Origin: Clostridiales bacterium
GTDB lineage: Bacteria; Bacillota; Sulfobacillia; CADDZV01
DNA: 46,502 nucleotides
Reading direction: 5' to 3'
Assembly (NCBI GenBank): GCA_902812875.1
Contig: CADDZV010000009.1
Span: 1 to 46,502 of the forward strand
This document shows positions 13,922-33,210 of the stretch, in pieces (within the stretch, counting starts at the first letter, position 1; each line of letters starts with the position of its first letter). The position numbers were made by a program, and so were the translations under genes. A model generated the notes under the pieces. It worked only from the letters and a program-made list of their open reading frames with translations, had not been told where the DNA came from and made no database searches.

Positions 13922-14740
13922 TCAAGGCTTCGCCACTGCGTTTATGAACATCGGGACAAAAGTGTCAAGCAAAATGAAGGTAACCAACGTGTACCCGATC
14001 ATCTCCGCGATCAGAAGAAGCCTTTGCCCGGCCGTGGTGGTATGCTGCACTTCCGGAACCGCGATGCCCATTGCCTCCAGCTCCAACGGATGCTCTTCCG
14101 CCATGTGGGCCACTGTGGTCGTTCCGTCAAGCCACACCGTGCTACCAGGGAACACACCGGGGGCAAAATGCACGGCAAAGAAATGACCGAACGCCAAGGA
14201 CAGCAGCGCTACGAAGGCCTCGTTGCTGTGCACTACCCGCAGGGCATCCACGGCCCAGCGCGGCATGTACTGGGACGCAAACCCCGGAAAGAGGATGACA
14301 ATCCCGGACCCGCCCATGACCACAAAACCCCAGAAAACTGCAAAGTACTCGAACTTTTCCAGGTAACTGTAGCGACCGTACCGCGGGCGGTCCGGCCGCA
14401 GCCCCACGAGCCACAAGGCATGGTGCACGGCGTCGCGAACGTCTTTGAGGCCGGGTATCATATCCCAGGTGGGGCCGTGCCGCAGCCAGTAATAGACGAT
14501 GTAACCGATGTGGTAAAGGCCGGCCACCACCATGAGGGCCGCCGCCGCAAGGTGTACGTCTAGCAGATGGTCAAACCCGCCAAACAACCCCGCCATGGTC
14601 CTGCCCCACGTGGTGTAGGCGTACTTGATTGGAAATCCTGTCAGGATGAGCACACCTACACTGACCAAAAGCCCAAGGTGCTGCAGCCTGTGCTGCCAGG
14701 ACCAACGCAAAATGCGGTCTTGCGGCGAAAGCTCAGTCAT
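13922..14740 (-). CDS. Membrane cytochrome b subunit
   Basis: A 272-residue protein with five hydrophobic helices and paired histidines suitable for b-hemes: HRLQH before helix 1, DVHLAA and GLYHIGY in helix 2, and VVHSNEAF plus FGHFFAVHFAPG in helix 4. This pattern fits the cytochrome b/b561-like subunits of formate dehydrogenase, hydrogenase and thiosulfate reductase, which pass electrons between quinone and a partner. Its ATG overlaps the stop of the 19-heme cytochrome (ATGA), so the two are made together and probably form a quinol:cytochrome c oxidoreductase. The frame stays open upstream only because it runs inside that gene. Confidence 0.85.
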   Translation of the reverse strand: MTELSPQDRILRWSWQHRLQHLGLLVSVGVLILTGFPIKYAYTTWGRTMAGLFGGFDHLLDVHLAAAALMVVAGLYHIGYIVYYWLRHGPTWDMIPGLKDVRDAVHHALWLVGLRPDRPRYGRYSYLEKFEYFAVFWGFVVMGGSGIVILFPGFASQYMPRWAVDALRVVHSNEAFVALLSLAFGHFFAVHFAPGVFPGSTVWLDGTTTVAHMAEEHPLELEAMGIAVPEVQHTTTAGQRLLLIAEMIGYTLVTFILLDTFVPMFINAVAKP

Positions 14741-16527: not shown

Positions 16528-16812
16528 TCATCCCTCCCTGCCCCGTGCCGGATTCGCGACCCGCTCAGGCCGGCCGGTCAGGGCGACGGGCATATCCGTC
16601 TCAAGCGAATCCGCAAACTCGAGGGTGGAGATCGCCTCCACCCGCAGGATGGCGTACCGTTTGCAGTGACGGCACCGGATGGCGATGACCTTGGGACCGG
16701 GGCCCAGCCCCATTTCGGACAACTCCCCGCCAGAACGCGGGCGGCGGGGTGCTCCGGTATCATCCCGGATCTCCGCCAGGATTTTCCCGCAACGGCACCG
16801 CAGATAGGGCAT
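16528..16812 (-). CDS. Com-like zinc-ribbon protein 1
   Basis: A 94-residue soluble protein starting at the ATG at 16812 after AGGAGGGAG. Its cysteine pairs RCRCGKILAEI and IRCRHCKRYAIL form a small four-cysteine metal site like that of the Com family (phage Mu Com regulates translation by binding RNA). About 30 residues rich in Gly, Pro and Arg separate the pairs. A paralogue with the same core lies at 20528-20758. It comes directly before the 19-heme cytochrome gene and after a terminator/antiterminator switch. Regulation or heme/metal handling for the cytochrome genes is plausible but unproven. Confidence 0.7.
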   Translation of the reverse strand: MPYLRCRCGKILAEIRDDTGAPRRPRSGGELSEMGLGPGPKVIAIRCRHCKRYAILRVEAISTLEFADSLETDMPVALTGRPERVANPARGREG

Positions 16813-16831
16813 CCTGGGCTCCCTCCTGTGC

Positions 16832-17017: not shown

Positions 17018-18034
17018 TCATGTGCGAACCCTACCTTCCGATTTCTCGTACCCGAGGTTCCGGAGGGCCTGATCGACATGCCCGAGCATGGTACGCAGCT
17101 CTTCATCCGAGATCCCCGCGACTGGGGTGTCAGCGTGAAGCTCATTCGCCGTGTCGGCATCCACCAGGCCGTGCATCAGGGCGTCCACCTGCCAGAAAAA
17201 CAGGCGCGCCCACTTTTCCCGGTCGAGCGACCCTTCCCGGTCTGGCTGTGCACTGGCCTGCAGGTGCCTCCAGATGGCCGCCAAAGCCAGGGCCACGAGC
17301 AAAAGACCGAAGCCGACGGTGACCACAAGCCAGATCCCCTGGATTGCGGTACCCGGAACCATCGCTACCGAGCTCCCCTGGGTAGGAGTGGATGAAGCGG
17401 GCGCGGACCCCGACCCGCTGGCAGTGCCACTGGCGCCGCTACTGCCCTGGAACGTCAGGGTGGCATCGAAGACACTACCTGCTGGCAGATCCTGGGCCCA
17501 GAACTGGGACATCTGTTGGTTGTCGATGGTGGCGTCGCCCCCTTGCACCAGGGCGCTGCCGCTCACCGTTGTGGTACCGAAGTCCTTCGGAAACAGCACG
17601 AAGAGCAGCGTGACTGGAATGTCTACTGACTTATGTATGCGTATGGCGTTGCCGTTACCCCCCGCCGGCAAACCATATTCGAGCACCATCGTCGTCTGAC
17701 CGGCAGGCAGACCGGGTGAGTAGTCGAAGCCATCTTTGCCTAAGACCGCTTTGCTCTGGTCGACGCCGGAGGCAAACTGCAGCCCGGTGAACCCCTCTGG
17801 CAGGGACACATGCACCGGGGCCACGGCTGCGCCGGAGTTGTCGAAACTGATCACGTCAGTGATGAACCAGCTTCCCTGACCCGGCATGATAATGATATGC
17901 TCCACGGCTACCTGGACACCGGGCGGGGTCTGCGACGCCGCCAGGGCACCGCCGGCCGAAAGGACCACGGCGCAAAGCACGGCCGCGGCGAATCGTACCC
18001 AGCGGAAAAAGCGATGGCTGTTGGCATGGTTCAT
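17018..18034 (-). CDS. Secreted, membrane-anchored protein of unknown function
   Basis: A 338-residue protein with a signal peptide (residues about 11-32, ending GGALAASQ), an extracytoplasmic beta-rich domain of some 200 residues (HIIIMPGQGSWFITDVISFD, VHVSLPEGFTGLQFASGVD), a Ser/Gly-rich linker near residue 220, a membrane helix (WLVVTVGFGLLLVALALAAI) and a cytoplasmic tail of about 75 residues. It has no heme motif. The ATG at 18034 has AAGGAGC seven bases upstream. It sits between the CcmI-like gene and the RNA switch of the cytochrome genes, so a role in cytochrome assembly or in sensing at the membrane is possible. I do not recognise the family. Confidence 0.65.
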   Translation of the reverse strand: MNHANSHRFFRWVRFAAAVLCAVVLSAGGALAASQTPPGVQVAVEHIIIMPGQGSWFITDVISFDNSGAAVAPVHVSLPEGFTGLQFASGVDQSKAVLGKDGFDYSPGLPAGQTTMVLEYGLPAGGNGNAIRIHKSVDIPVTLLFVLFPKDFGTTTVSGSALVQGGDATIDNQQMSQFWAQDLPAGSVFDATLTFQGSSGASGTASGSGSAPASSTPTQGSSVAMVPGTAIQGIWLVVTVGFGLLLVALALAAIWRHLQASAQPDREGSLDREKWARLFFWQVDALMHGLVDADTANELHADTPVAGISDEELRTMLGHVDQALRNLGYEKSEGRVRT

Positions 18035-18056: not shown

Positions 18057-18482
18057 TCAGGCCGGCCACTTGTGACCGCAGCGGTGGCAGAAAGCCTGGT
18101 CTGGGGACAGCCGGGCAGCGCCACAGTACGGACAGAACTCGACTTCCGGGCTGGCGACGGCGGTTTTGGGCGTCGGTTCTTTTGCGGTTACACGGGCACG
18201 CTTCACGGGCCGGTACCCCGCCACCAGGACGGCCGCCTGGTCAATGAGCTCCAGCCGCAGGCGTTGGTAATCAGAAAGCGCGATCTTTCCAGCCCCATAG
18301 TCCTCCTCGAGCTCCCCGAGCTCCGCCTCGATGCGGGCAAGCCCGCTCACGAGGCCAGCTTGTGCCTGCCGGTGGCCGCCCTCCCCTGCCTCCTCCGGAG
18401 CCGGACGCGCGAGCGGCCAGAGCACAAACACCGCCGCCACCAGCCCAAGAACCAGTATCCAGACCCCCAGGTGGTAGCCCAT
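18057..18482 (-). CDS. CcmI-like protein with C-terminal zinc ribbon
   Basis: A 141-residue protein. Residues 5-24 form one membrane helix (GVWILVLGLVAAVFVLWPLA). The middle segment ELEEDYGAGKIALSDYQRLR matches the coiled motif seen in CcmI-type cytochrome c maturation proteins. The C-terminus has two cysteine pairs (FCPYCGAARLSPDQAFCHRC), a zinc ribbon facing the cytoplasm or, depending on topology, the outside. Its ATG overlaps the ccmF stop by one base (TGATG), so it is translated with ccmF, which supports a role in heme attachment. Confidence 0.72.
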   Translation of the reverse strand: MGYHLGVWILVLGLVAAVFVLWPLARPAPEEAGEGGHRQAQAGLVSGLARIEAELGELEEDYGAGKIALSDYQRLRLELIDQAAVLVAGYRPVKRARVTAKEPTPKTAVASPEVEFCPYCGAARLSPDQAFCHRCGHKWPA

Positions 18483-20485
18483 CAGCCGCTCACCCCCGTT
18501 GCCGTGGCGCCACGGGCCAGCACGCGCGCCGGCACCGGTACCGCCACCCTGCTGGCGCCTGGCCAAGCCGCGAGGAGCCCGCCGGCCAGAAGCACATACA
18601 TGCCGATCCAGAGCCACGCCACCAGCGGGTTGACGTACACGGTAAACCCGCCACTTTGCCCGTTCTGTGTCCAGCCGTCCAACACTACGTACACGTCACC
18701 CGCGAGTGATCCCCGGATGGCCACTTCGCTTGTCGTCTGGTCACCAGGGAAGTACATTCTGGCGGGGTAAAGATGACCCAGGTCGCGCCCGCCACGCGAA
18801 ACGGTCACATCCGCAAACACCCGGGCCACCGGACCATAGTCTTGTTCATGTAGGCCCTGGTAGGCGATGGTGTAGTCACCGACGGTGATCTGGCCGCCTA
18901 CCGGAACCACGGTACCCTTCTGCACCACCTGGAACCCCACCGCCCCCACGATCCCAATGATCATGAGGAGGATGCCGGCATGTACCAGGTACCCGCCAAA
19001 GCGGCGGCGGTCTTTGGCCACTACCCGGGAAAGGGCCAGCGGCCAAGCCTCCCCGGTGGCGTGCGCCCGGGCAGCCGTGCTCACCACGAGCTCACGGATG
19101 AGGGTGCCAATTCCGGCCAGCACTGCCCCGCCGGCCAGCCCCACCGTCCAGTGCGCCCATCCGGCCAGGAAGGCCGTCGCAACAAACCCGGCGATCCCCG
19201 CGATGGCCGGCCACAGCCACGCCCGCAGGAAAGTGCGCCAGCGGAACGAACGCCACGCCAGTACCGGACAGATGCCTATCAGGATTGCCAAGAGAAGCCC
19301 CAGCGGGGCGCTGATCTCCTGGTAATAGGTCTGGCTGACCGCCACGTCACCCCGCCCCGCGAGCCGGGCGAAAAGGGGCATCAACGTACCGATCAGAACG
19401 GCCAACGCCAGAGCCACAAACACCAGGTTACTGAGGACAAACCCGCCCTCTTTCGAAAGCAAAGAGCCCATTTCGGTTTTGTCCTTCAGCTTTGGCCACC
19501 GCCATGCAATGAGGCCGACGGCGGTAACCGCGACCAACACCATAAAAATCGCGATGGGGTAAATCTGCTCTTTGTTGATCATGCTGTGCACCGAGTTAAT
19601 TACGCCGGTGCGGGTGAGCCAAGTGCCCAGTATGGTAAGAAGGAAGGTCGCCGTGATGAGGATCGGCGACCACGCACGCAGCATGCTCCGTTTATCCTGG
19701 ACGATGGCGTTGTGGAGGTAGGCCGTCATGAAAAGCCAGGGCACCAAGGCCGCGTTCTCGACCGGATCCCACCCCCAGAAGCCGCCCCAGTTCAGTTCCT
19801 GGTACGCCCACAACGCACCAAGGAGCATCCCCGCACTGAGGAAAAACCATGCCCAGACCGACCAGCCGCGGGCGGCCCTTACCCAGTCGTCGCCAGACTG
19901 CCCCTTGACCAGGGCTGCCACGGCGTACGCAAACGGTACCGTCACGCCGACATAACCAAGGTACTGAAACAGCGGGTGCCAAATCATGGCGGCGTTGAGG
20001 AGTAGCGGGTTGATCCCCGCCCCCTCGCTCGCGCCGGCCGGAGCCAGAGCAAACGGGTTGGCGCTAAAGAGCACAAGCCCAGTGAAAAAAGCAGCCGTCA
20101 AGGACATGACTGCCAACACCAGGTCATGAAAGCCCTCGCCGAGCGTACGCGGCCCGGCGGCCACCAGCGCCGCGTAGAATGCCAAAAGCCAGGCCCACAA
20201 AAGCAACGAGCCTTCGTTGCCCGCCCACACCGCAGAGATACGGTACAACAAAGGCTGGTAGGTTGCACTGTGGGCAAAAACGTAAGCCACCGAGAAGTCG
20301 TTGCGGATAAACAGTACGACCAGTGACAGCAGCGCCAGCGTCAGGCTGGCAGCTAGCGCCCACACCGCCCGCCGGGAGCTCTGCCGGTACTGCCCGCCTT
20401 CCCGGAAGGCCAGAATACCAGCAACCGTAGCGTACAGGGCTAGCAAAAACCCGACTACCAGAGCTGCATCTCCTAGCGCCGCCAT
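18482..20485 (-). CDS. ccmF: Cytochrome c maturation heme lyase CcmF
   Basis: Attaches heme to apocytochrome c outside the membrane. The 667-residue polytopic protein carries the tryptophan-rich heme-handling motif WGGFWGWDPVENAALVPW (near residue 230) and conserved external segments such as WAGNEGSLLLWAW (near residue 90). The C-terminal extracytoplasmic domain before the last helix is typical of CcmF/NrfE. The start ATG follows GGAAGG. CcmA, B, C, D, E, G and H are not in the window, so the rest of the system must lie elsewhere or be reduced. Location among cytochromes with 19 and 9 hemes fits a high need for heme attachment. Confidence 0.93.
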   Translation of the reverse strand: MAALGDAALVVGFLLALYATVAGILAFREGGQYRQSSRRAVWALAASLTLALLSLVVLFIRNDFSVAYVFAHSATYQPLLYRISAVWAGNEGSLLLWAWLLAFYAALVAAGPRTLGEGFHDLVLAVMSLTAAFFTGLVLFSANPFALAPAGASEGAGINPLLLNAAMIWHPLFQYLGYVGVTVPFAYAVAALVKGQSGDDWVRAARGWSVWAWFFLSAGMLLGALWAYQELNWGGFWGWDPVENAALVPWLFMTAYLHNAIVQDKRSMLRAWSPILITATFLLTILGTWLTRTGVINSVHSMINKEQIYPIAIFMVLVAVTAVGLIAWRWPKLKDKTEMGSLLSKEGGFVLSNLVFVALALAVLIGTLMPLFARLAGRGDVAVSQTYYQEISAPLGLLLAILIGICPVLAWRSFRWRTFLRAWLWPAIAGIAGFVATAFLAGWAHWTVGLAGGAVLAGIGTLIRELVVSTAARAHATGEAWPLALSRVVAKDRRRFGGYLVHAGILLMIIGIVGAVGFQVVQKGTVVPVGGQITVGDYTIAYQGLHEQDYGPVARVFADVTVSRGGRDLGHLYPARMYFPGDQTTSEVAIRGSLAGDVYVVLDGWTQNGQSGGFTVYVNPLVAWLWIGMYVLLAGGLLAAWPGASRVAVPVPARVLARGATATGVSG

Positions 20486-20527: not shown

Positions 20528-20758
20528 TCAGTCTGCCGATACCGACCGCCCGGCGAGGGAGGGCGGCTCTGGAAGTTGTTCGCGGCTTGACTGGTTATCT
20601 GCCGGTGCCGCGTCGCAAGACGCCGCCTGTTCGGGCAGTACTTGGGTTCCGTCCAGGTTGATAGCAATAAACCGCTTGCAATGCCGGCATTTAATGATGA
20701 TGGTGTGCCCCTGCCTTTTTGCCAATAGTTTCCCGCAAACGCAGCGAATGTCGTCCAC
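20528..20758 (-). CDS. Com-like zinc-ribbon protein 2
   Basis: A 76-residue protein from a GTG at 20758 with GGAGGG six bases upstream. Its core DIRCVCGKLLAKR then IIIKCRHCKRFIAIN has the same C-x-C and C-x-x-C pairs as the protein at 16528-16812, without the 30-residue insert. The tail is polar and probably disordered. It is the first gene of the ccmF-cytochrome operon and lies 57 bases downstream of a CRP/FNR-type palindrome. A regulatory or RNA-binding role is suggested by the Com resemblance only. Confidence 0.65.
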   Translation of the reverse strand: MDDIRCVCGKLLAKRQGHTIIIKCRHCKRFIAINLDGTQVLPEQAASCDAAPADNQSSREQLPEPPSLAGRSVSAD

Positions 20759-20814
20759 AACCGTCCCTCCCCCACGGGAGGTGGGCTCGGGCCTAGCGTG
20801 GCTCGTGCCACCTC

Positions 20815-20917: not shown

Positions 20918-22801
20918 CTACTTGACAGAGGCCAGGAACTGTTGCAGGTTGTCCTCCGCCACCTGCAAGGTCTTCATCGCGTAGTCGAAGTTGTGGGCAC
21001 CCATGCTGCCGTCCGCTTGCACGCAGCTGATGTCCGTAACCGCGGTCAGCACCTTCTGCGTGAGGGTCGCCGGCAGTCCGGGGTTGTTCTTCATGATGGC
21101 CTGGGCCTGGGCCAGCAACGCGTTCGCTTTGTCCAGCTCTGCCTTGGTGGTAGCCTGCCAGGCATCGATATAAGCCTGACGGGCCGCCCGGGTGGAATCC
21201 TTGTGGCAGGTGGTGCACGAATCGTTCGGCACACCAGGAGTGCCAGCGTCCTTCGGCATCACGATCTGGAAGGTGTGGTTCGTCCCGGCCGCATGCCCCG
21301 TACCAGTGACGACAGCATGGCAATCCACGCACGTGACCCCGGCCTTGGCATGGAACGATGCATCAGGCTGCACCCCAGGCGCCCCCACCCCGGCGAACAT
21401 TTCGGCCGAGTCGTGGTGCACCGTGGAACCAGGCGTGAACGCGACACCCTTGAGCGAACCGTTGTGGCAAGAAGCACAGAGCTGATCAGGAGGCAGCCGC
21501 AGCTGGGCACCTTCCGGCCCGTATCCGGCGGAGTGCACGGTATGGCAGGCGTCGCAGGTCAGGCTCGTCGTGACGCTTGCCAGCGTGGGCTTCGCACCGT
21601 CCGGAGCCAGGATGTACTCAGTGGAATGGCACGCCAAGCAGCTGGACTGGGCATGACCGCTGGACTTCAGGCTCGGCAGGGCCTCGGCGTGGGCGCTCTT
21701 TTCCCACGTCGTGTACTGGCCGCGGTCAGCATGGCACTTGGCGCACGTGTTGGCCGAGTAGTCCAGCGTGATCTTGCTCGTATCACCGTGGCCCAGGATG
21801 TGGTCCTTGCCAGGTCCGTGGCAGGTCTCGCATGTGATGCTTACCTCGGCGTAATGCTTGGTCGTAGCATCATACCCGGTGGTGTGGCATTGCGCGCACG
21901 AAACCTCCCAGGGGGTCGCCGTCTGCCACTTCTGCGGATCGCCAGTCTGGGTCCACTTCTTGTTGACGGTGTCCCAGCTGTAAGGCAGGTAGACATGCGT
22001 GCCGTTCGGGAGCTCGTACAAGAACCGCTGCTGGGTGGTGTTGGCTACCGTGTAGTGGGCGTTACGGTAATAGTTCACCAGCGACTGGTCAGGCAGCGTG
22101 GAAAAGTCCGCCTGCACTACACCAGGCTGCCGCGCGTCCAGGATCATGTTGGCGTGCGCGGTGTCCTTCCACCCCTCGTACTTGTCGAGGTGGCACCCCA
22201 GGCAGGCCTGCGAACCCACGTAGGCACCGACCTGGAAGTGGGCCCCCTCCTCTGGGCCCATGCCCAGAGCCGTCAACAGAATGTAAGTAGCCTCGCCACG
22301 CGTGACAATGCCTTGGGGATTGATGACCTTAAGCTGTGTGGATGTGCTCGGCAGGATGTTTTTCTCCAGGGCCAGGGCTACCGCGGCCTGGTCCGCTGGA
22401 CTGACCGCCGCCCCGTCCGACCATCCCGCCAGGATGCTTTGGATCCCCTGGGGCTGCAGGGCCGCGAGTTCGCCCGGCCACAAGGCGTTCGCGATCAGGT
22501 TGCAGGCCATCTCGCGCGTCAGGGTGCTAGACGATGCGGAAACCGTCACCGGGTGGCCGCTATTGGCCATCATGACGGCAAAATCTTGCTGCAGAATGGG
22601 ATCGTCGGGATGGAAAAGGCCGTCCGCGCTGGGCTTGATGATCCCCGCCGTCGCGGCGGCGTAGATGTAACCCTCGTAACTGTTTCCGGCCACATCGGTG
22701 AACGGAGCAAGGGCATACACCGTCAGGGTGCCCATGAGGATTACGCCTGCTGCCAATACCACCCCGATTGCCCATCTGCGGCCCCGCAGGTTGGTAGACA
22801 T
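20918..22801 (-). CDS. SLH-domain nonaheme c-type cytochrome
   Basis: A 627-residue exported protein. Residues 10-31 are a signal peptide. Residues about 33-180 hold SLH repeats (FTDVAGNSYEGYIYAAATAG, ADGLFHPDDPILQQDFAVMM, then GIVTRGEATYILLTALG) that bind secondary cell-wall polymer. Nine CXXCH motifs follow from residue 200 to 533, and a C-terminal helical tail includes MGAHNFDYAMKTL, whose His could be a distal heme ligand. The fusion places the hemes in or on the S-layer. It resembles the class of terminal cytochromes seen in Gram-positive metal reducers, but the electron acceptor is unknown. AGGAGG precedes the ATG. It sits at the head of the cytochrome locus with its own long leader. 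Confidence 0.92.
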   Translation of the reverse strand: MSTNLRGRRWAIGVVLAAGVILMGTLTVYALAPFTDVAGNSYEGYIYAAATAGIIKPSADGLFHPDDPILQQDFAVMMANSGHPVTVSASSSTLTREMACNLIANALWPGELAALQPQGIQSILAGWSDGAAVSPADQAAVALALEKNILPSTSTQLKVINPQGIVTRGEATYILLTALGMGPEEGAHFQVGAYVGSQACLGCHLDKYEGWKDTAHANMILDARQPGVVQADFSTLPDQSLVNYYRNAHYTVANTTQQRFLYELPNGTHVYLPYSWDTVNKKWTQTGDPQKWQTATPWEVSCAQCHTTGYDATTKHYAEVSITCETCHGPGKDHILGHGDTSKITLDYSANTCAKCHADRGQYTTWEKSAHAEALPSLKSSGHAQSSCLACHSTEYILAPDGAKPTLASVTTSLTCDACHTVHSAGYGPEGAQLRLPPDQLCASCHNGSLKGVAFTPGSTVHHDSAEMFAGVGAPGVQPDASFHAKAGVTCVDCHAVVTGTGHAAGTNHTFQIVMPKDAGTPGVPNDSCTTCHKDSTRAARQAYIDAWQATTKAELDKANALLAQAQAIMKNNPGLPATLTQKVLTAVTDISCVQADGSMGAHNFDYAMKTLQVAEDNLQQFLASVK

Positions 22802-22882
22802 TGAACACCGCCTCCTTCGTACTGAGATAGAGGCCCGGCGTTACACAGGACGCACCTCCGTGCGTAGCGCTCGGGAGGCCGA

Positions 22883-22912
22883 CTTTTCCCCCTCCGACCC
22901 CAGGGGGAAAAG
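22883..22912 (-). promoter_or_regulatory. Large hairpin in the SLH cytochrome leader
   Basis: CTTTTCCCCCT (22883-22893) and AGGGGGAAAAG (22902-22912) form a perfect 11-bp stem with an 8-base loop, 80-110 bases upstream of the cytochrome ATG. No T-tract follows on the minus strand, so it is not a standard terminator. The whole 331-base gap (22802-23132) holds no gene that I can support. It contains this hairpin, a second imperfect one (GCGC-G-ACAA/TTGT-A-GCGC around 22980-23005) and a possible -10 box. Confidence 0.5.
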
Positions 22913-23022
22913 CACGCCGGGGCTCTTCAACCAGCGCTCCGGCCTCCGCCTCCACGGGTACGCGACCACGGGCACATGCGCTACAACGCTATTTGTCGCG
23001 CGTTTGCGGCTACTCCAGCGTC

Positions 23023-25002: not shown

Positions 25003-25848
25003 TCATGTGTGCACCTCCGGAGAAAAACCGAGGTTCCGCCACAGCGAAATAGCCTCTTCGCGGTGCGTGCGGGCCGCCTGGTGGTCGCCAAGCGCGTCCT
25101 CCAGCCTGGCCATGAGGCTAAAAACGTAGGCGACCTGGTAGGTGAGTTCCCCGCCCTCATGCCGAGAGTAGAAATCCAAGGCCTCCTGCAGGAAATCCCG
25201 CGCCCCGTCAAGGTTTTTGCCCATGCGGATATAGGTCTCCGCAAGCCCCAAGCGTGCCAGCACCTGGCCGTCCCGGTCGTCCTGGGTGGCCAGCTCATCT
25301 GCCTTGCCGTACAGGCCGGCGGCCACCTGCAGGTGTTCGTCCTGCCGCTCGCGGTCGGCATCCGCCAGCATGAGGCAGAGGTCACCGAGGTAGGTCGACC
25401 CTGCTACCATGGCGCTGCGAAGATCAAGTTCGCTCGCGCGGCGCAGGGCTTCCTCGCCGGCCTTCAGCCCCTCGTACACGTGCGCGAGACTGTGGGCAGG
25501 GTCCACGGTCGCCAGGTCGCGGTACAGAGCTGGCAGGCTCACCATGGCCTCGGCCGCTGCACGAGACCGTCCAGTCGCGTCGAGAAGCTCCACCTGTTGC
25601 CGGACGTAGTCGACCGCCTGGGCGATGGCCTCCGGCCCCGCTTCGGTGCGAAGCACGCTTGCCCATAAGCCATACACGCTGGCCAGCGCCTCGTCGTCCC
25701 CGGCCTCGCGGGCGGCCTTCTCGGCCGCCGCGAGTTCTTCCCGGGCCATGGCCAAAAAGGCTTTGCCGTGGGTGAATGCCATCTGGTAGTACACGGCCGC
25801 CTGTGCTAAGGCCCGGCGCTGTGCCGGGATCTCCTCAGAAGAGGCCAT
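25003..25848 (-). CDS. TPR-repeat protein
   Basis: A 281-residue, all-helical soluble protein. Helical pairs recur about every 34-44 residues (for example [74 protein letters not shown]), the pattern of tetratricopeptide repeats used for protein binding. It has no enzyme motif. It starts inside the end of fhs (14-base overlap) and ends four bases before birA, so it belongs to the hut/C1 operon. The partner is unknown. Confidence 0.8.
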
Positions 25849-27505
25849 GAATCTTGCCGTCCCGGTCGATGTCGATTTTCTCTGCCGCCGGTTCCTTGGG
25901 CAGGCCCGGCATGGTCATGATCTCACCAGTGATGGGCACCACGTAGCCGGCACCAGCTGACACCCTCACCTCACGGACCGTGATCCGGAACCCGCGCGGC
26001 CGCCCCAAGAGCTTGGCGTCGTCCGAAAGTGAATACTGCGTTTTCGCCATGCAGATCGGCATGGTATCCGCACCAACCTTCTTGGCCCGGCGGATATCAC
26101 GCTCGGCATCGCGGGTGTAATCAACGCCGTCCGCGCCATAGATCTCGCGGGCAATCGTCTCGATTTTCTCTTTGATCGGCCGGGCTGGATCGTAAAGGAA
26201 CTTAATGTTTGCCGGCTTGGTCTTGATGGTGTCGAGCACCAGTTTCGCCAGGTCGACGCCACCCTCGCCGCCGCGTGCAAACACGTCGGACAAAGCCGCC
26301 GGCGTACCGCGGGCCTGCAAAAGCTCGAACAAGGCACCAAGTTCCGCGTCGGTGTCCTGCCCGAACCGGTTCACCGCTACCACCACGGGTGCCCCGTAGC
26401 GTTCCATGTTCTCAACCTGCTTTTCCAGGTTGGCAAAGCCGCGGCGTACCGCCTCCACATTTTCCTCGCCGAGGGCTTCTTTTTCGACCCCGCCGTGCAT
26501 CTTCAGGGCACGTACCGTTGCCACCACTACCACGGCGTCAGGGGTGAAGCCACCGGCCCGGCAGGTAATGTCGAAGAATTTCTCGCCGCCGAGATCGGCA
26601 CCAAAGCCTGCCTCGGTCACGACGTAGTCCGCCAGCTTAAGGGCCAGGCGGGTGGCGATAATGCTGTTGCAGCCATGAGCGATGTTACCGAACGGTCCGC
26701 CGTGTACGAACGCCGGCGTGTTCTCGAGCGTCTGCACCAAGTTCGGCTTGATGGCATCTTTCAAAAGGGCAGCCATGGCCCCGGCCGCCTTGAGGTCGCG
26801 GGCATAAACCGGCTTGTCGTCATATGTGTAGCCGATCACTATGCGCCCGATACGTTCCTTGAGGTCCTCCAGGTCGGAAGCCAGGGTGAGAATCGCCATG
26901 ATCTCGGAAGCCGCCGTGATGACAAAGCCGTCCTCCCGCGGCACGCCCTGCGACTTGCCGCCCAGGCCGATGATGATCTGCCGCAGGGCACGCTCATTCA
27001 TGTCCATGGCCCGCTTCCAGGTGATGCTGCGCGGATCGATGTTCAGTGCATTGCCTTGTTGCAGGTGGTTGTCAATCATGGCAGCCAGCAGGTTGTGGGC
27101 GGCAGTCACGGCGTGAATATCGCCGGTGAAATGAAGATTGATGTCCTCCATCGGCACGACCTGGGCGTAACCACCGCCGGCCGCACCGCCCTTGATGCCC
27201 ATCACGGGTCCGAGAGAGGGCTCCCGGATGCAGATGGCCCCCTTGACCCCGAGGCGGCCGAGGGCCTGGCCCAGACCGACAGTGGTGGTTGTCTTGCCCT
27301 CGCCAGCCGGGGTGGGCGTGATCGCGGTCACCAGGATGAGCTTGCCGGATGGGCGGTCCTTGATCTGGTCCCACAGTGCCAGGTCAACCTTGGCCTTGTA
27401 CTTGCCGTAGGGCTCAAGATACTCGTCCGGGATGCCGAGCTTGGCTGCGATCTCCCCAATGGGGGCCATGGTAGCACTCTGGGCAATTTCGATATCGGGC
27501 TTCAA
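25835..27505 (-). CDS. fhs: Formate--tetrahydrofolate ligase
   Basis: Joins formate to THF with ATP, or runs backwards to make ATP from 10-formyl-THF. The 556-residue protein has the ATP loop [20 protein letters not shown] (residue about 62), [20 protein letters not shown], and the conserved [17 protein letters not shown]. Length is normal. The start is TTG with GAGGTG five bases upstream. It sits after fchA in the histidine/C1 cluster. In that setting the reverse reaction, recovering ATP from the formimino carbon of histidine, is likely. Wood-Ljungdahl use is possible, but no other genes of that pathway are here. Confidence 0.96.
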
Positions 27506-27559
27506 GATATCACCTCGTACCTCTGAAGCAAGATTTTGTGGATTTCTACTTTCCAGTTT

Positions 27560-28192
27560 TTACTCCGTTGCCCCGTCCTTGATCCTGAGAACTTCAAATT
27601 CATGGCGCAGGGCGTTCACCGCGTCCGCCTTTTCGCCCGCAAACTGGTGGTCCTTGATGAGCAGTATATTGATGCTCGCATTTGCCAGACCACCCTCGAA
27701 CGCCGTGGCCCCGAGTGTGAAGGCCACCGCGGCATCGCTGGCAGCGTTCTTGTTGCCCTTGGCCTTCACCTCTGTAGCCAGGCGCATCACTTCCATGGCC
27801 ATGGTGGCCGTGCGGAGCGGTACAGTGGTTGCCTGCTTGAGGGCCTCCTCCAGTATCTGGCGGCGCGTGGCCTCCTGTTCGGGCGTGTCCTTGGGCAGTT
27901 TCATGGCCGCGATCACTTGCTCGTAGGCGGCCGCGTCGGCCTGGGCCTGCGCCATGAACTGCGGGCGGAGACGGTCCGCCTGCGCGAGCACCGCCTGCAG
28001 GTCGTTCTCATACTGCGCGTATTTTTTCCTGCCGATGGTGAGCCGGCACACCATCGACACCAGGGCTGCCCCCATGGCACCGGCCACTGCCGAGGCTGCC
28101 CCGCCCCCCGGGGTCGCATTGCCAGACGCCAGTTCGTCAAGGAACTGTGCTAGCGACATGCTAGCGTAGTCGTGCAGGTTCGCTTCATCCAA
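27560..28192 (-). CDS. fchA: Cyclodeaminase/cyclohydrolase (formimino- or methenyl-THF)
   Basis: A 210-residue protein of the FTCD_C family. ATPGGGAASAVAGAMGAALVSM (a long conserved block split here by convention) lies near residue 27, and GLANASINILLI near the end. Paired with FtcD it should release ammonia from 5-formimino-THF to give 5,10-methenyl-THF, and it may also open methenyl-THF to formyl-THF. The TTG start overlaps the hutI stop by eight bases and has GGAG nine bases upstream. The separate fchA and ftcD genes correspond to the fused mammalian FTCD enzyme. Confidence 0.9.
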   Translation of the reverse strand: MDEANLHDYASMSLAQFLDELASGNATPGGGAASAVAGAMGAALVSMVCRLTIGRKKYAQYENDLQAVLAQADRLRPQFMAQAQADAAAYEQVIAAMKLPKDTPEQEATRRQILEEALKQATTVPLRTATMAMEVMRLATEVKAKGNKNAASDAAVAFTLGATAFEGGLANASINILLIKDHQFAGEKADAVNALRHEFEVLRIKDGATE

Positions 28193-29459
28193 TCAGCATC
28201 ACTCCTTCTCTGGCCACCAGCCGGCCGCGGATATAGACCTCACGGGCCAAATTGGATCCGTAGTGATACGAAAGGTAACGATAATCCGCCGCGTCCCAGA
28301 CGACAAAATCCGCCGGGCGCCCGGCCGCCAGCACGCCTCCCACCTCTCCGCGACCGGCTGCCCACGCCGCGTTCACGGTGGCGGCCGTGAGCACCTGCTC
28401 GGGGCTCAATCCCAGGGTGCGGGCCGCCAGCGGCACGACGGCCTGCAAGGATTCGGTGGGACTCGTGCCGGGATTGCCGTCCGTAGCCAGGGCGACCGGC
28501 ACGCCAGCCGCAATGAGTTCGCGGGCCGGGGCAAAGCGGGAACCAAGCGTGAGGGAAGTCCCAGGCAAAAGGACGGCCACCACCCCTGCCCGGGCCAGGG
28601 CGGCCATGCCCTCCGGCGAAACCATGATCAGGTGATCCGCACTGGTGGCACCCAGTTCCGCCGCCAGTTCGGCCCCGCCCATCGCTGCGATCTCGTCGGC
28701 ATGCACCTTCAGTCCAAGACCGGCCGCGCGGGCGTGGGTCAGGATCTGGCGGCTCTGATCAAGATCGAACACGCCTTCTTCGCAAAACACGTCGCAAAAC
28801 TCGGCCAAATGCGCACCCGCGACGGCCGGAATCATCTCGTCAATGACAAGCTGCACGTAGTCATTCGCACGTCCCTGGAATTCCGGCGGAACGGCATGCG
28901 CACCCAGAAACGTGGCTACCACCCTGATCGGGTGTTCGCCCGCCGCCCGCCGGATGACCCGCAGCATTCGTAGCTCATCCACCGTGGAAAGCCCGTAACC
29001 AGATTTCACCTCGATGCCGGTGGTTCCGCTCGCCAAGGCCTGGGAAAACCGTTTGTGCAGCAGAGACACCAACATTTCGTCCGAGGCGGCCCGCGTCGCA
29101 CGAACGGTGCTGAGAATGCCGCCGCCGGAGGCCAAAATCTCAAGATAACCGCGCCCAGCCAGCCGCCACGCGAACTCTTCCTCGCGGGAGCCGGCATAAC
29201 AAAGGTGGGTATGGGGATCCCACAAGCCCGGGGTTACCACCCGCCCACCCGCGTCGACCGTGCGGGTGTCCTGGTCAGCCAGGGCTTGCACATCTTTCTC
29301 CGGTCCCACCGCGACGATCTTCCCGCCCGCGACCGCCATGGCCGCATGCCGCAAAAGGCCCACGTCGTCCATTTCGGCACCACGGCGCGGCCGGTCTGGC
29401 CCCTGCATCGTGCACAGCTGACCGATGTTGTAGACAAGAAGGTCGGCTCTGGTTTCCAT
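28185..29459 (-). CDS. hutI: Imidazolonepropionase
   Basis: Third step of histidine breakdown: opens imidazolonepropionate to formiminoglutamate. The amidohydrolase fold shows PGLWDPHTHLCYAGSREEEF (metal site near residue 85), GTTGIEVKSGYGLST, LGAHAVPPEF, KVHADEI and ATDGNPGTSPTES. The start is uncertain: METRADLLVYNIGQL at 29459 matches family openings, while in-frame ATG at 29465 and TTG at 29477 lie slightly upstream and no candidate has a strong ribosome site. It follows ftcD at once and overlaps fchA, so it is in the middle of the operon. Confidence 0.95.
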   Translation of the reverse strand: METRADLLVYNIGQLCTMQGPDRPRRGAEMDDVGLLRHAAMAVAGGKIVAVGPEKDVQALADQDTRTVDAGGRVVTPGLWDPHTHLCYAGSREEEFAWRLAGRGYLEILASGGGILSTVRATRAASDEMLVSLLHKRFSQALASGTTGIEVKSGYGLSTVDELRMLRVIRRAAGEHPIRVVATFLGAHAVPPEFQGRANDYVQLVIDEMIPAVAGAHLAEFCDVFCEEGVFDLDQSRQILTHARAAGLGLKVHADEIAAMGGAELAAELGATSADHLIMVSPEGMAALARAGVVAVLLPGTSLTLGSRFAPARELIAAGVPVALATDGNPGTSPTESLQAVVPLAARTLGLSPEQVLTAATVNAAWAAGRGEVGGVLAAGRPADFVVWDAADYRYLSYHYGSNLAREVYIRGRLVAREGVMLIG

Positions 29460-29473
29460 GTGCATACCCGCGG

Positions 29474-30430
29474 TCAACCGGCGTTTTTGCCGTCGCGATC
29501 GGAAACGGCCGCCGATTTCACCCCGCCCGGCTTCTGTGCCTTTGCAAGACGGGCTTCGAGCACCTGGTCATCCTTGAATCCGGCCAAACCCAGGTAGTAC
29601 CGCACCGTATCCACCAGGGCCCGCTCCGGCACCAGCCCCACAATCTCGCTGTCGAGGATGCCAACTCCGAAACGGCGGGCTTCCACGCGTACAAGCTCAT
29701 AAGCCCGGTAGATCGGCGTGGCATCGAGGTCGACGAGGTTCATGGACACCTGCACACAACCGCGTTCCGTGATTTCGAACCCCAGTGCCTTCACACCGAC
29801 CAGCCCACCGCTCGATCCCCGCACCGCCTTGGCAATAGCCTTCGCCACTTTTACATCCTTGGTGTCGAGGTAAACGTTGAAAGCCACGAGCGGTTTCCGC
29901 ACCCCTACCACGGTCGCTCCTGCAGAGGGATGAGGCGACGCGGGTCCAAAGTCGGGTGCCCAGGCGGGATCAGCCATCTTGGCCGGCAAGCCTTCGAACT
30001 CGCCGCGGCGGATGTCCGCCAGGTTGCGGCGAGCCGGGGTGGTCGCCGCGTCCTCGTAGAGGTAGACCGGTATGCCAAGTTCCCGGGCGATGCGCTCCCC
30101 GAGGGCCCTCGCCAGCTCTACGCTTTTTTCTACCGTGATTCCTTCGATGGGTACAAGCGGTACGACGTCGGTCGCACCAATACGCGGGTGTTCCCCTTGG
30201 TGATGCCGCAGGTCAATCAGTCGCGCTGCTTCGGCGGTAGCGGCGAAGGCCGCCTCCAGAACCGCCTCCGGCTCACCGGCGATGGTAAACACGCTCCGAT
30301 TGTGGTCCTTGTCCGCTTCCTGGTCAAGCAAATATACCCCCGGAACCCGCGTGAGGGCTTTGGCCAATGCCTCCAGTACCTCCGGCCGGCGCCCCTCACT
30401 GAAATTCGGAATACTCTCCAGTATCGCCAA
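29474..30430 (-). CDS. ftcD: Glutamate formimidoyltransferase
   Basis: Moves the formimino group from N-formiminoglutamate to THF, yielding glutamate. The 318-residue product has ESIPNFSEGRRPEVLEAL at the start, DHNRSVFTIAG, HPRIGATDVVPLVPI, YLYEDAATTPAR, and the C-terminal subdomain from VRGSSGGLVGVKALG to RRFGVGILDSEIVGLVPE. The TTG at 30430, eight bases after GGGGGG, gives the usual MxILESIPNFSEG opening; a GTG five codons earlier is also in frame. It follows the propeller gene by 18 bases. Confidence 0.95.
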   Translation of the reverse strand: MAILESIPNFSEGRRPEVLEALAKALTRVPGVYLLDQEADKDHNRSVFTIAGEPEAVLEAAFAATAEAARLIDLRHHQGEHPRIGATDVVPLVPIEGITVEKSVELARALGERIARELGIPVYLYEDAATTPARRNLADIRRGEFEGLPAKMADPAWAPDFGPASPHPSAGATVVGVRKPLVAFNVYLDTKDVKVAKAIAKAVRGSSGGLVGVKALGFEITERGCVQVSMNLVDLDATPIYRAYELVRVEARRFGVGILDSEIVGLVPERALVDTVRYYLGLAGFKDDQVLEARLAKAQKPGGVKSAAVSDRDGKNAG

Positions 30431-30448
30431 AACGCTTCCCCCCACATG

Positions 30449-31522
30449 TCATCGCGGCCATTGGCGGCCGCGAAGGTGCAAACGCCACTTTGTCTCGCTA
30501 CGCAAAAGCACGATCTGCCAGCCGCTTTCGTTCCCTGTGAGCACGGCCACCGTACTCCCGCGGGGATCCGCTTGTGCCGCCCACACCTGTTCGCCGGGGC
30601 GAGCCACCACCGCGTCCCAGACCCGGCGGCCTGCCGCCGTAATCTTGGACACCTGGTAGACCGGGCCTTGGTTCCACGTCAGAGTATATACCCCGCCTGG
30701 CCATCCCCCTACAATCCGAAAACCGCGTACTGCCTCCGGAAAGTTGACAGTAAACGACCCGGTGAGGCTTTGGCCTGACAGGGCAAAAACGGTGCGCCCG
30801 AAACCTTCGCCGCTTCTGGTTTCCACGTAAAGCGTGCCGGCCTGCCAAGCCCATGAGCCCACCGCACCTGGTCCGAGGCCCGGCGGCGTCCGCGTGCTGT
30901 CACCGCGCGCAGGCTGGTAGACCGAAAAAAGCGTCTGTCCGGGCGCGCCGTCGGCGAGCAGGACACAGGCACGATAGCTGCCAGCGCGGCCAAGCACCAC
31001 GATGTCTGCCACCGCTTTTCCGTCTGCCGTCACGCCTAGCCCCTCGAGCTGGAGCCGCTCTATCTTGCCGACGTCAGGCAAACCTGGCAGGCTCGCCGGG
31101 TTCAAAGTCGCCACCGCTTCGTTCTTCCCGTCGCGGTAGACATAGACCACGCCCCCCGTGGTCGCTCCCCACAGGGTGCCATCGCTACCCGCTGCCAAAA
31201 AGGTGGGTGCCTCGCCCGCGGCACCTTTCCACATGATCTCCCAGGTGCCCGACCGCCAGCACTGCACCCGCGCGTTTTGCCTGTCCGCCACGCAGATGCT
31301 GCCGTCGGGGAAAACGGCCAGCCCACCCGGTCCCGCGAGGCCGCCGTTGCGAGCCTTGGCCAACCCAAGCTGGCCGGGGGCACTACCCCAGCCGGCATAC
31401 ACGGCAATGGTCGCCACTGCCTTTTCCGTGCGCTCCAGGCGGAGGCTCAGGACCAGGACCGCCATGACCACCACCAGCCCAAGCCCCACGAGCGCCATCC
31501 GCCGGTTCATAAACAGGTACAC
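30449..31522 (-). CDS. Membrane-anchored beta-propeller (NHL-like) protein
   Basis: A 357-residue protein with one N-terminal membrane helix (residues about 9-26, ALVGLGLVVVMAVLVLSL) and an external domain with propeller-type repeats: GPGGLAVFPDGSICVADRQN is a clear NHL motif, and weaker strands follow to the end. It has no catalytic residues that I can name. It is the first gene after the 31564 promoter and lies between hutH and ftcD, an unexpected place for such a protein. The start is GTG at 31522 or ATG at 31510. It could bind a ligand or carbohydrate outside the cell, or be unrelated to histidine use. Confidence 0.7.
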   Translation of the reverse strand: MYLFMNRRMALVGLGLVVVMAVLVLSLRLERTEKAVATIAVYAGWGSAPGQLGLAKARNGGLAGPGGLAVFPDGSICVADRQNARVQCWRSGTWEIMWKGAAGEAPTFLAAGSDGTLWGATTGGVVYVYRDGKNEAVATLNPASLPGLPDVGKIERLQLEGLGVTADGKAVADIVVLGRAGSYRACVLLADGAPGQTLFSVYQPARGDSTRTPPGLGPGAVGSWAWQAGTLYVETRSGEGFGRTVFALSGQSLTGSFTVNFPEAVRGFRIVGGWPGGVYTLTWNQGPVYQVSKITAAGRRVWDAVVARPGEQVWAAQADPRGSTVAVLTGNESGWQIVLLRSETKWRLHLRGRQWPR

Positions 31523-31528
31523 CCACGA

Positions 31529-31559
31529 CCACCCACGGTTATCCCTACGGTGTGGGTGG
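31529..31559 (-). repeat. Inverted repeat at the start of the propeller-hut transcript
   Basis: CCACCCAC (31529-31536) and GTGGGTGG (31552-31559) form an 8-bp inverted repeat with a 15-base spacer. It begins at the predicted transcription start of the promoter just upstream, so it could be an operator or a 5' hairpin on the mRNA. Confidence 0.45.
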
Positions 31560-31563
31560 GCTA

Positions 31564-31591
31564 TTTATACAGGCAGAAGCCAAGCTGAAAA
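31564..31591 (-). promoter_or_regulatory. Promoter TTTTCA-N16-TATAAA for the propeller-ftcD-hutI-fchA-fhs operon
   Basis: On the minus strand TTTTCA (31586-31591) and TATAAA (31564-31569) are 16 bases apart in the 80-base gap after hutH. It would let the genes down to birA be expressed separately from hutH. Confidence 0.5.
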
Positions 31592-31602
31592 CACCGCCAA
31601 GG

Positions 31603-33210
31603 CTAGTCCAGTGCTTCCCAGCCGGCATCGTCCATAAGCACCCGCTGGGCGACCTCGAAGTCGGGTGCCAGGATCCGGTCTTCGGCCATGAACGGGACCT
31701 TCGCCCTTACTGCCAAGTAGGCCCGCCGTGTCCCCGCCCCAAGATGCGAGGCCACCGCTTCCGGATCCGGCGCCTGCCGCCATTCCTGGCCGCGGAGCTT
31801 TGCCACCCGCAGGTCGGCGGCCTGGGCGGCCACGCACAGCTCGATGGCGAGCACCGCGGCAGTGTTTTCCACCACTTTTCTGGCCTTGCGAGCAGCAATC
31901 GTGCCCATACTGACGTGATCCTCTTGCCCGGCGGACGACGGGATGCTGTCCACACTGGCGGGGTGCGAAAGCACGCGGTTTTCCGCGACGAGGGACGCTG
32001 CCGTGTACTGGGCCAGCATGAATCCGGAATTGAGCCCGCCATCCACCGCCAGGAACGCCGGAAGCCCGCCGCTATACTGCGGGTTGACCAGACGTTCGAT
32101 CCGCCGTTCCGCCATTGCGGCAAGATCGGTCATCACGATGGCCAGCAGGTCCATCACCTGGGCAATCGGCTGCCCATGGAAGTTTCCGCCCGAAATGATC
32201 TCGTCGGGATCGTTGAACACAAGCGGGTTGTCGGTCACCGCGTTGATCTCCCGGGCCAGCATCGACTCGATGTATGACAGAGCGTCATACGCGGCACCGT
32301 GCACCTGGGGAAGACAACGAAGCGAATAAGCATCCTGCACGCGGAGCTCCCCTGGACCGGTTACGAGCCGGCTTTCACGTACCGTCTCGCGCAGGGCACG
32401 GGCCGCCCATAACTGCCCCGGATGGGGCCGCAACGCCGCGATGCGTTCGTCAAAAGCAGCCGGGATGCCCTGCAGTGCTTCAAAACTCAACCCCGCCACC
32501 AGGTTCGCTCGCTGCAGAAGCCGCATGGCGTCGTACCACGCCAACACACCCAGTGCAGTCATGACTTGGGTACCATTGATGAGGGCCAAACCTTCCTTGG
32601 CTTCCAGCCTGAGGGGCGCCAGGCCGGCCGCCCGCAAGGCTTCGCGGCCCGGCATTACCCGGCCGCCAAACTCGGCCTCCCCCTCGCCGGTAAGCACGAG
32701 GGCCATGTGGGCCAGCGGGGCCAAATCCCCGCTCGCTCCGAGGGAGCCCTGCTCCGGCATGAGAGGATGCACCCCGGCATTCAGAAGCTCGCACAGCCGC
32801 TCGACAACCACTGGCCGCACGCCCGAGTAACCCCGCCCGAGCGAGTTCGCCCGCAATAACATGGCGGCCCTGGTGACCTCGCGGGGGAGCACCGCTCCGA
32901 CGCCAGCGGCGTGGCTTTGCAACAGTTTCTGCTGCAACTCCTGTCGATGGCCGGCGGGAATAAAAACCTCTGCAAAACGCCCGAACCCAGTGGTGATGCC
33001 ATAAATGGGAACTTCGCTGGTAATGAGCCTTTCCACGGCGGCGCGGTTTTTTGTAAGCTTTTCTCTTAATTCAGCGTCCAGCACCACGCGGCCAAAACCC
33101 CGCACTACCTGGACGACATCCGCAATACTCAGTCCTTTCTCACCTATGACGGTCGGCACACTAGAACCGGCGGCACGCGTCCCGGAACCGCCGGCCGCGT
33201 TCACTGCCAA
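31603..33210 (-). CDS. hutH: Histidine ammonia-lyase
   Basis: Removes ammonia from histidine to give urocanate. The 535-residue protein has the tripeptide ASG in GSLGASGDLAPLAHMALVL (residue about 165), which forms the MIO electrophile, with YGITTGFGRFAEV, QDAYSLRCLPQVHGA and SGGNFHGQP. The first 20 residues are a Gly/Ala-rich extension. The start is TTG with GGAGG eight bases upstream. It lies upstream of the other hut genes but is separated from them by the propeller gene and a promoter. Urocanase, the next enzyme, is not in the window. Confidence 0.96.
   Translation of the reverse strand: MAVNAAGGSGTRAAGSSVPTVIGEKGLSIADVVQVVRGFGRVVLDAELREKLTKNRAAVERLITSEVPIYGITTGFGRFAEVFIPAGHRQELQQKLLQSHAAGVGAVLPREVTRAAMLLRANSLGRGYSGVRPVVVERLCELLNAGVHPLMPEQGSLGASGDLAPLAHMALVLTGEGEAEFGGRVMPGREALRAAGLAPLRLEAKEGLALINGTQVMTALGVLAWYDAMRLLQRANLVAGLSFEALQGIPAAFDERIAALRPHPGQLWAARALRETVRESRLVTGPGELRVQDAYSLRCLPQVHGAAYDALSYIESMLAREINAVTDNPLVFNDPDEIISGGNFHGQPIAQVMDLLAIVMTDLAAMAERRIERLVNPQYSGGLPAFLAVDGGLNSGFMLAQYTAASLVAENRVLSHPASVDSIPSSAGQEDHVSMGTIAARKARKVVENTAAVLAIELCVAAQAADLRVAKLRGQEWRQAPDPEAVASHLGAGTRRAYLAVRAKVPFMAEDRILAPDFEVAQRVLMDDAGWEALD

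Follow-up and report, generated by a model that had tools for sequence, protein, structure and literature searches.

The window, that is, the whole 46,502-nucleotide stretch of DNA that was analysed, carries on its minus strand a complete gene for a single secreted protein (hereafter the window protein), in which a signal peptide is followed by a region of S-layer homology (SLH) repeats and by an OcwA-type nonaheme cytochrome c core (Table 1). The coordinates given in the preliminary description were correct and the strand is minus; the frame crossing the same interval on the plus strand was discarded as an artefact. The gene starts with an ATG at 22801, immediately 5' of which lies AAGGAGG. 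A signal peptide had been proposed and a hydrophobic sequence was indeed located at the N-terminus, beyond which no further membrane segment was found in a hydrophobicity scan. The nine CXXCH motifs previously placed between residues 200 and 533 were all recovered, with starts at residues 200, 302, 324, 353, 388, 416, 442, 491 and 529, and no CXXCK motif was present among or beside them. Across 20,000 shuffled versions of the protein, such motifs averaged 0.03 and never exceeded two, versus nine in the real sequence. When the whole protein was searched against Pfam, SLH was over its cut-off (E=4.8e-12, 46 bits) and several multiheme families were matched too; this SLH search had been set beforehand as a test of the domain assignment, and its outcome was positive.

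Table 1 Features of the SLH-nonaheme gene, its product and the genes downstream (coordinates in the window)
Feature	Position	Strand	Residues	Evidence or remark
Complete gene: signal peptide, SLH region and OcwA-type nonaheme cytochrome c	20918..22801	-	627 aa (stop included)	
Signal peptide	22712..22801	-	1 to about 30	Hydrophobic stretch about 9-34; no lipobox Cys in the translation
SLH repeat 1	22577..22705	-	33-75	Pfam PF00395, 41 bits; only repeat over cut-off when scanned apart
SLH repeat 2, C-terminal half only (TLTREMACNLIANAL...)	22457..22531	-	about 91-115	No Pfam match alone; aligns to second half of SLH model
SLH repeat 3, degenerate, VTRGE at end	22277..22423	-	about 127-175	Pfam 15 bits, E=0.02, sub-threshold
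OcwA-type nonaheme core	20921..22243	-	187-627	6i5b, E=6e-64; nine-heme alignment
His-His pair, counterpart of OcwA HH380/381 over open heme 5	21413..21418	-	462-463	Alignment
C-terminal helical bundle with conserved distal-ligand His603 (GAHN)	20924..21190	-		Alignment; the one better-scoring part of the AlphaFold model is helical
13-bp GC hairpin directly 3' of stop codon	20865..20910	-		Fold -41.3 kcal/mol, z -3.9; no U tract
CcmF/NrfE-type heme lyase	18482..20485	-		PF16327, PF01578; kept beside cytochrome gene in L033 and L037
Small membrane protein, zinc ribbon, CcmI-like position	18057..18494	-		Kept in L033
Secreted/membrane protein of no recognised family	17018..18034	-		Kept in L033
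19-heme cytochrome, signal sequence and C-terminal membrane helix	14737..16524	-		Best NCBIfam score below cut-off; fits no curated family
Cytochrome b561-type (Ni_hydr_CYTB) membrane protein	13922..14737	-		PF01292; five hydrophobic segments; start approximate

Downstream on the same strand, the gene order is a small zinc-finger-like protein, CcmF, the zinc-ribbon membrane protein, the unassigned secreted/membrane protein, a second zinc-finger-like protein, the 19-heme cytochrome and cytochrome b561. The hairpin behind the cytochrome gene may attenuate transcription into these genes. The same gene set in the same order (SLH-nonaheme, CcmF, CcmI-like protein, membrane protein, zinc finger, multiheme cytochrome, cytochrome b), with an inserted 8-heme protein, was found at locus L033 of genome G001, which belongs to a different family of the same class and holds the nearest relative of the window protein (L007, 43% identity); the cytochrome b561 has a relative there at 63% identity. 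A variant module, at L037, combines an SLH-decaheme with a 7-heme membrane cytochrome, cytochrome b and CcmF, and the open reading frame between cytochrome b and CcmF is CcmE-like by eye, while at L034 an unfused nonaheme lies beside other multihemes and cytochrome b. Mainly because of this conserved linkage, the window protein was interpreted as the outermost member of a chain driven by quinol, in which the cytochrome b561-type protein is the likely quinol oxidase and the 19-heme cytochrome the likely inner electron donor.

The two small zinc-finger-like proteins of the operon (20528-20764 and 16528-16815, minus strand; CXC...CXXC) are mutually related and are also found twice in the operon of G001; no Pfam or NCBIfam match was obtained for the one scanned against each library. 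The 5' leader of the cytochrome gene (22802-22948, minus strand) is GC-rich and contains a long hairpin (CTTTTCCCCC...GGGGGAAAAG) with z -2.9 versus shuffles. It has no Rfam match, only sub-threshold chance matches being obtained upstream of the gene, and across the window neither a riboswitch nor another RNA was found by Rfam, nor any tRNA.

Heme core and SLH region

Among solved structures, the best match was 6i5b (OcwA, a nonaheme surface reductase from Thermincola potens), with both halves of the core aligned, and the second was 6qvm (OmhA of Carboxydothermus; E=2e-20) (phmmer; structures identified in PMC12203936). In an alignment of sixteen cores, hemes 1-9 of the window protein are in one-to-one register with those of OcwA. 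Since the AlphaFold modelling of the window protein and one relative failed (pLDDT 41, pTM 0.25), heme coordination was read from this alignment. It has been reported that in OcwA hemes 1, 3, 4, 6, 7 and 8 are bis-His, heme 9 is His-Met, and hemes 2 and 5 are open, each under a His-His pair (PMC6703420). The histidines outside CXXCH that are invariant in the aligned core relatives are His216, 334, 371, 423, 509 and 603; they match the six bis-His hemes of OcwA in number, an agreement of counts that does not assign a histidine to a heme. His603 is the residue of the MGAHN motif suggested earlier as a possible distal ligand, and its invariance, which extends to OcwA, is in keeping with that role. 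The heme-5 His-His pair of OcwA is retained, and apart from it hemes 2 and 5 of the window protein have no conserved distal histidine of their own, which argues against all nine hemes being bis-His. The window protein thus resembles OcwA in its heme register, invariant distal histidines, heme-5 pocket, C-terminal helices and the absence of CXXCK. It differs in lacking both HH281/282, which form the pocket over heme 2 in OcwA, and a loop some 60 residues long; the SLH-decahemes and L007 lack them too. A further difference is that no SLH or other wall module occurs in the deposited OcwA sequence or in the relatives L052 and L054. In L007, the heme 7 motif has CX3CH spacing (CTSPCH) in place of CX2CH, and Arg-Arg takes the place of the heme-5 His-His pocket.

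The C-terminal half of the window protein also matches cytochrome c552/NrfA (PF02335) and the structure of an octaheme nitrite reductase. Identity with the NrfA pentaheme nitrite reductase was rejected: the protein has nine CXXCH motifs, PF02335 covers its C-terminal part only, and the NCBIfam NrfA scores were far below cut-off.

SLH repeats had been described over residues 33-180. The outline was right, but only about two and a half degenerate repeats are present, namely one full, one half and one weak, instead of three complete ones. In SpaA, successive repeats contribute Gly29, Trp13 and Arg43 to a groove that needs all three to bind the wall sugar, and anchoring in cells depends on the glycine (PMC6081394). 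With positions assigned by alignment to our own SLH model, repeat 1 of the window protein has Pro57 at the Gly29 position and Gln at the Arg43 position, repeat 2 is without its first half, and repeat 3 is without the glycine. Gly29 is therefore missing from every repeat and no groove has all three residues; tyrosine, a conservative change, stands in place of Trp13, and the arginines of the TRE and TRGE motifs are kept. In contrast, L007 has one complete site (glycine of repeat 3, tryptophan of repeat 1 and arginine of repeat 2), and several other SLH proteins in the window's genome retain glycine and arginine. Canonical wall-polymer binding is not predicted for the SLH region from these residues, and the wall-binding part of the protein looks partly worn out. 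The missing glycine makes wall binding less likely, though still possible, because SpaA with the G109A change still bound at 226 nM, a roughly ninefold loss of affinity (PMC6081394).

Distribution of the fusion and related proteins

An OcwA-type core was matched at 1e-20 in 16 of the 154 genomes of the class, and 12 of these 16 carry an SLH-fused copy by the SLH model, a count that includes a cut-off copy in G028. A sample of 398 genomes from across the phylum gave 26 further genomes with a match; no SLH was found in the loci examined from those 26, some of which have Cu_amine_oxidN1. Only two relatives were obtained in a search of genome contigs, and a scan of viral contigs added none.

A tree was calculated for 32 cores, with SLH labels fixed before it was seen. 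The window protein and L007 group together (98/95) beside unfused nonahemes, in the part of the tree that contains OcwA (99/95) and across from the SLH-decahemes; the OmhA rows form a separate branch (100/100). The starred branches require at least two changes for SLH. A single old SLH-OcwA family, to which the tree is also opposed, was rejected when all SLH rows were held together (AU test, p=1.8e-64). SLH has therefore been joined to OcwA-type cores at least twice, and the window protein represents an evolutionarily separate case. The alternative of an ancient SLH tag with many later losses, for which change counts formally leave room since they are blind to gain versus loss, needs more steps.

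The SLH-decahemes of the same class (L009-L011, L013-L017 and L040) likewise have SLH repeats directly before an OcwA-type core, but they possess three full repeats and an extra N-terminal CXXCH beside a DSDGDG-type repeat, and by the tree and the AU test they represent a separate fusion. In L051, L059 and L067 the N-terminal module on the same kind of core is a different one, Cu_amine_oxidN1 (PF07833), in place of SLH. OmhA, the 11-heme Fe(III) reductase of Carboxydothermus ferrireducens, has an SLH-like region before an OcwA-related core in one polypeptide; it has been published as modular, and the title of its description (Tikhonova et al. 2023; reference 49 in PMC12203936) names insertion into the S-layer. 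To the extent of that title, OmhA is a published precedent, and a single-polypeptide, wall-inserted multiheme reductase is not new. OmhA differs in having eleven hemes, two of them N-terminal, and a core on a separate long branch; no Pfam SLH match was found in its wall region. The window protein was accordingly not assigned to the OmhA type, having nine hemes, not eleven, and standing on another branch of the tree. In ANME archaea an S-layer domain is also fused to multiheme cytochromes (PMC9012536), and a CcmF2 gene lies beside MHC-B. This is an analogy only, as the archaeal S-layer domain is unrelated to SLH and those proteins have 20-80 hemes and a C-terminal membrane helix.

In the limited literature consulted, no description was found of an OcwA-type nonaheme with a recognisable SLH region, or of a repeated origin of such a fusion; what is new here is that the joining occurred at least twice and in 12 of the 154 genomes. 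Very few proteins so far show how bacteria that lack an outer membrane keep a terminal cytochrome on the outside of their thick wall. The window protein and its relatives form a natural comparison set, in which one nine-heme core occurs with SLH, with a copper-amine-oxidase-N-like module or bare; of the SLH pair, the window protein and L007, only L007 has its wall-sugar site complete. Whether extracellular electron transfer requires a wall tag thereby becomes testable, through exchange or deletion of the tag while the core stays the same. We put forward tentatively, as an idea with somewhat less than even chances, that this phylum has repeatedly and independently put possibly wall-binding N-terminal modules on one OcwA-type core (SLH on two or more occasions, a Cu_amine_oxidN1-like module likewise, and the type found in OmhA once), so that a removable tag may be a general monoderm way to place a terminal reductase, and that the tag of the window protein has shifted from sugar binding to another hold on the surface.

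Host envelope and proposed electron route

CsaB, taken as the marker of a pyruvylated wall polymer, is encoded in the window's genome (TIGR03609, 262 bits versus a curated cut-off of 213), together with other SLH proteins. No Omp85 was detected in this genome, which is 96% complete, and the same search was positive in diderm controls; the bacterium is probably monoderm. UbiA prenyltransferases are present, and the futalosine menaquinone marker PF02621 was not found in the genome.

The window protein is quite probably an OcwA-type terminal multiheme cytochrome that is secreted and associated with the wall, and that is fed by a quinol-to-surface route in a probably monoderm host. OcwA and OmhA, its two best structure matches, have both been reported as cell-surface terminal reductases (PMC6703420; PMC12203936). 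Quinol would be oxidised by the cytochrome b561, from which electrons would pass to the membrane-tethered 19-heme cytochrome and then across the wall to the SLH-nonaheme protein, which its SLH region would hold, probably weakly, in the S-layer or wall zone. Exposed hemes may be the exit for electrons, most plausibly heme 5 with the His-His pocket above it; outside, an electrode, another cell, a shuttle or an Fe(III) mineral, for example, could accept them. The earlier proposal that one polypeptide is both wall anchor and electron terminal stands insofar as SLH sequence and nonaheme core share one chain, CsaB is present, Omp85 is undetected and the operon holds a plausible inner donor. Its corollary, that the protein can do without a separate anchoring partner, is unsupported, because all three grooves are incomplete.

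The strength of anchoring bears on a reading in which the SLH region is a vestige that does not bind the wall, and the cytochrome is loosely held or released. The incomplete grooves are what such a vestige would show, the more so as a complete site survives in L007 and the glycine in other SLH proteins encoded by the genome, and OmhA, which has no Pfam SLH match, was found at the cell surface and shears off easily (PMC7829351). Yet a recognisable SLH region is left: repeat 1 reaches 41 bits, the conservative tyrosine and the TRE/TRGE arginines remain, and SpaA G109A still binds. We consider a vestige doubtful, though worth keeping in mind. The diderm reading, with the SLH region tethering a periplasmic cytochrome beneath an outer membrane, draws on the occurrence of SLH proteins in diderm Firmicutes; against the Omp85 search and its positive controls, it is highly improbable.

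The terminal role itself is questioned by the view that the protein is a respiratory or detoxifying reductase in the wall zone, with nitrite, hydroxylamine, sulfite or some other oxyanion as its small, soluble substrate. This would accord with the PF02335 and octaheme nitrite reductase matches of the C-terminal half, with the nitrite and hydroxylamine reduction by OcwA and its structural closeness to NrfA and MccA (PMC6703420), and with the scoring of the neighbouring lyase in the CcmF/NrfE family. However, OcwA is the top match by a wide margin, nine CXXCH are present with no CXXCK, the CcmF/NrfE models cannot tell the two roles apart, and a 19-heme membrane cytochrome with a wall tag suits long-distance transfer better than a membrane-proximal reductase. 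A small-substrate reductase is thus unlikely, and extracellular electron transfer is the preferred reading.

Two further observations concern other loci. At 1227-3374 of L082 (G000, contig C2, outside the window), a 715-aa protein is a fused quinol-cytochrome module: its 7-heme region, which has weak similarity to octaheme tetrathionate reductase, is linked to a cytochrome b of the formate-dehydrogenase-gamma type. Within the window, at 25835-33210 on the minus strand, genes of the histidine-degradation kind (HutI, glutamate formimidoyltransferase, cyclodeaminase and an aromatic amino acid lyase) lie beside formate-tetrahydrofolate ligase, which suggests that histidine feeds the folate pool.
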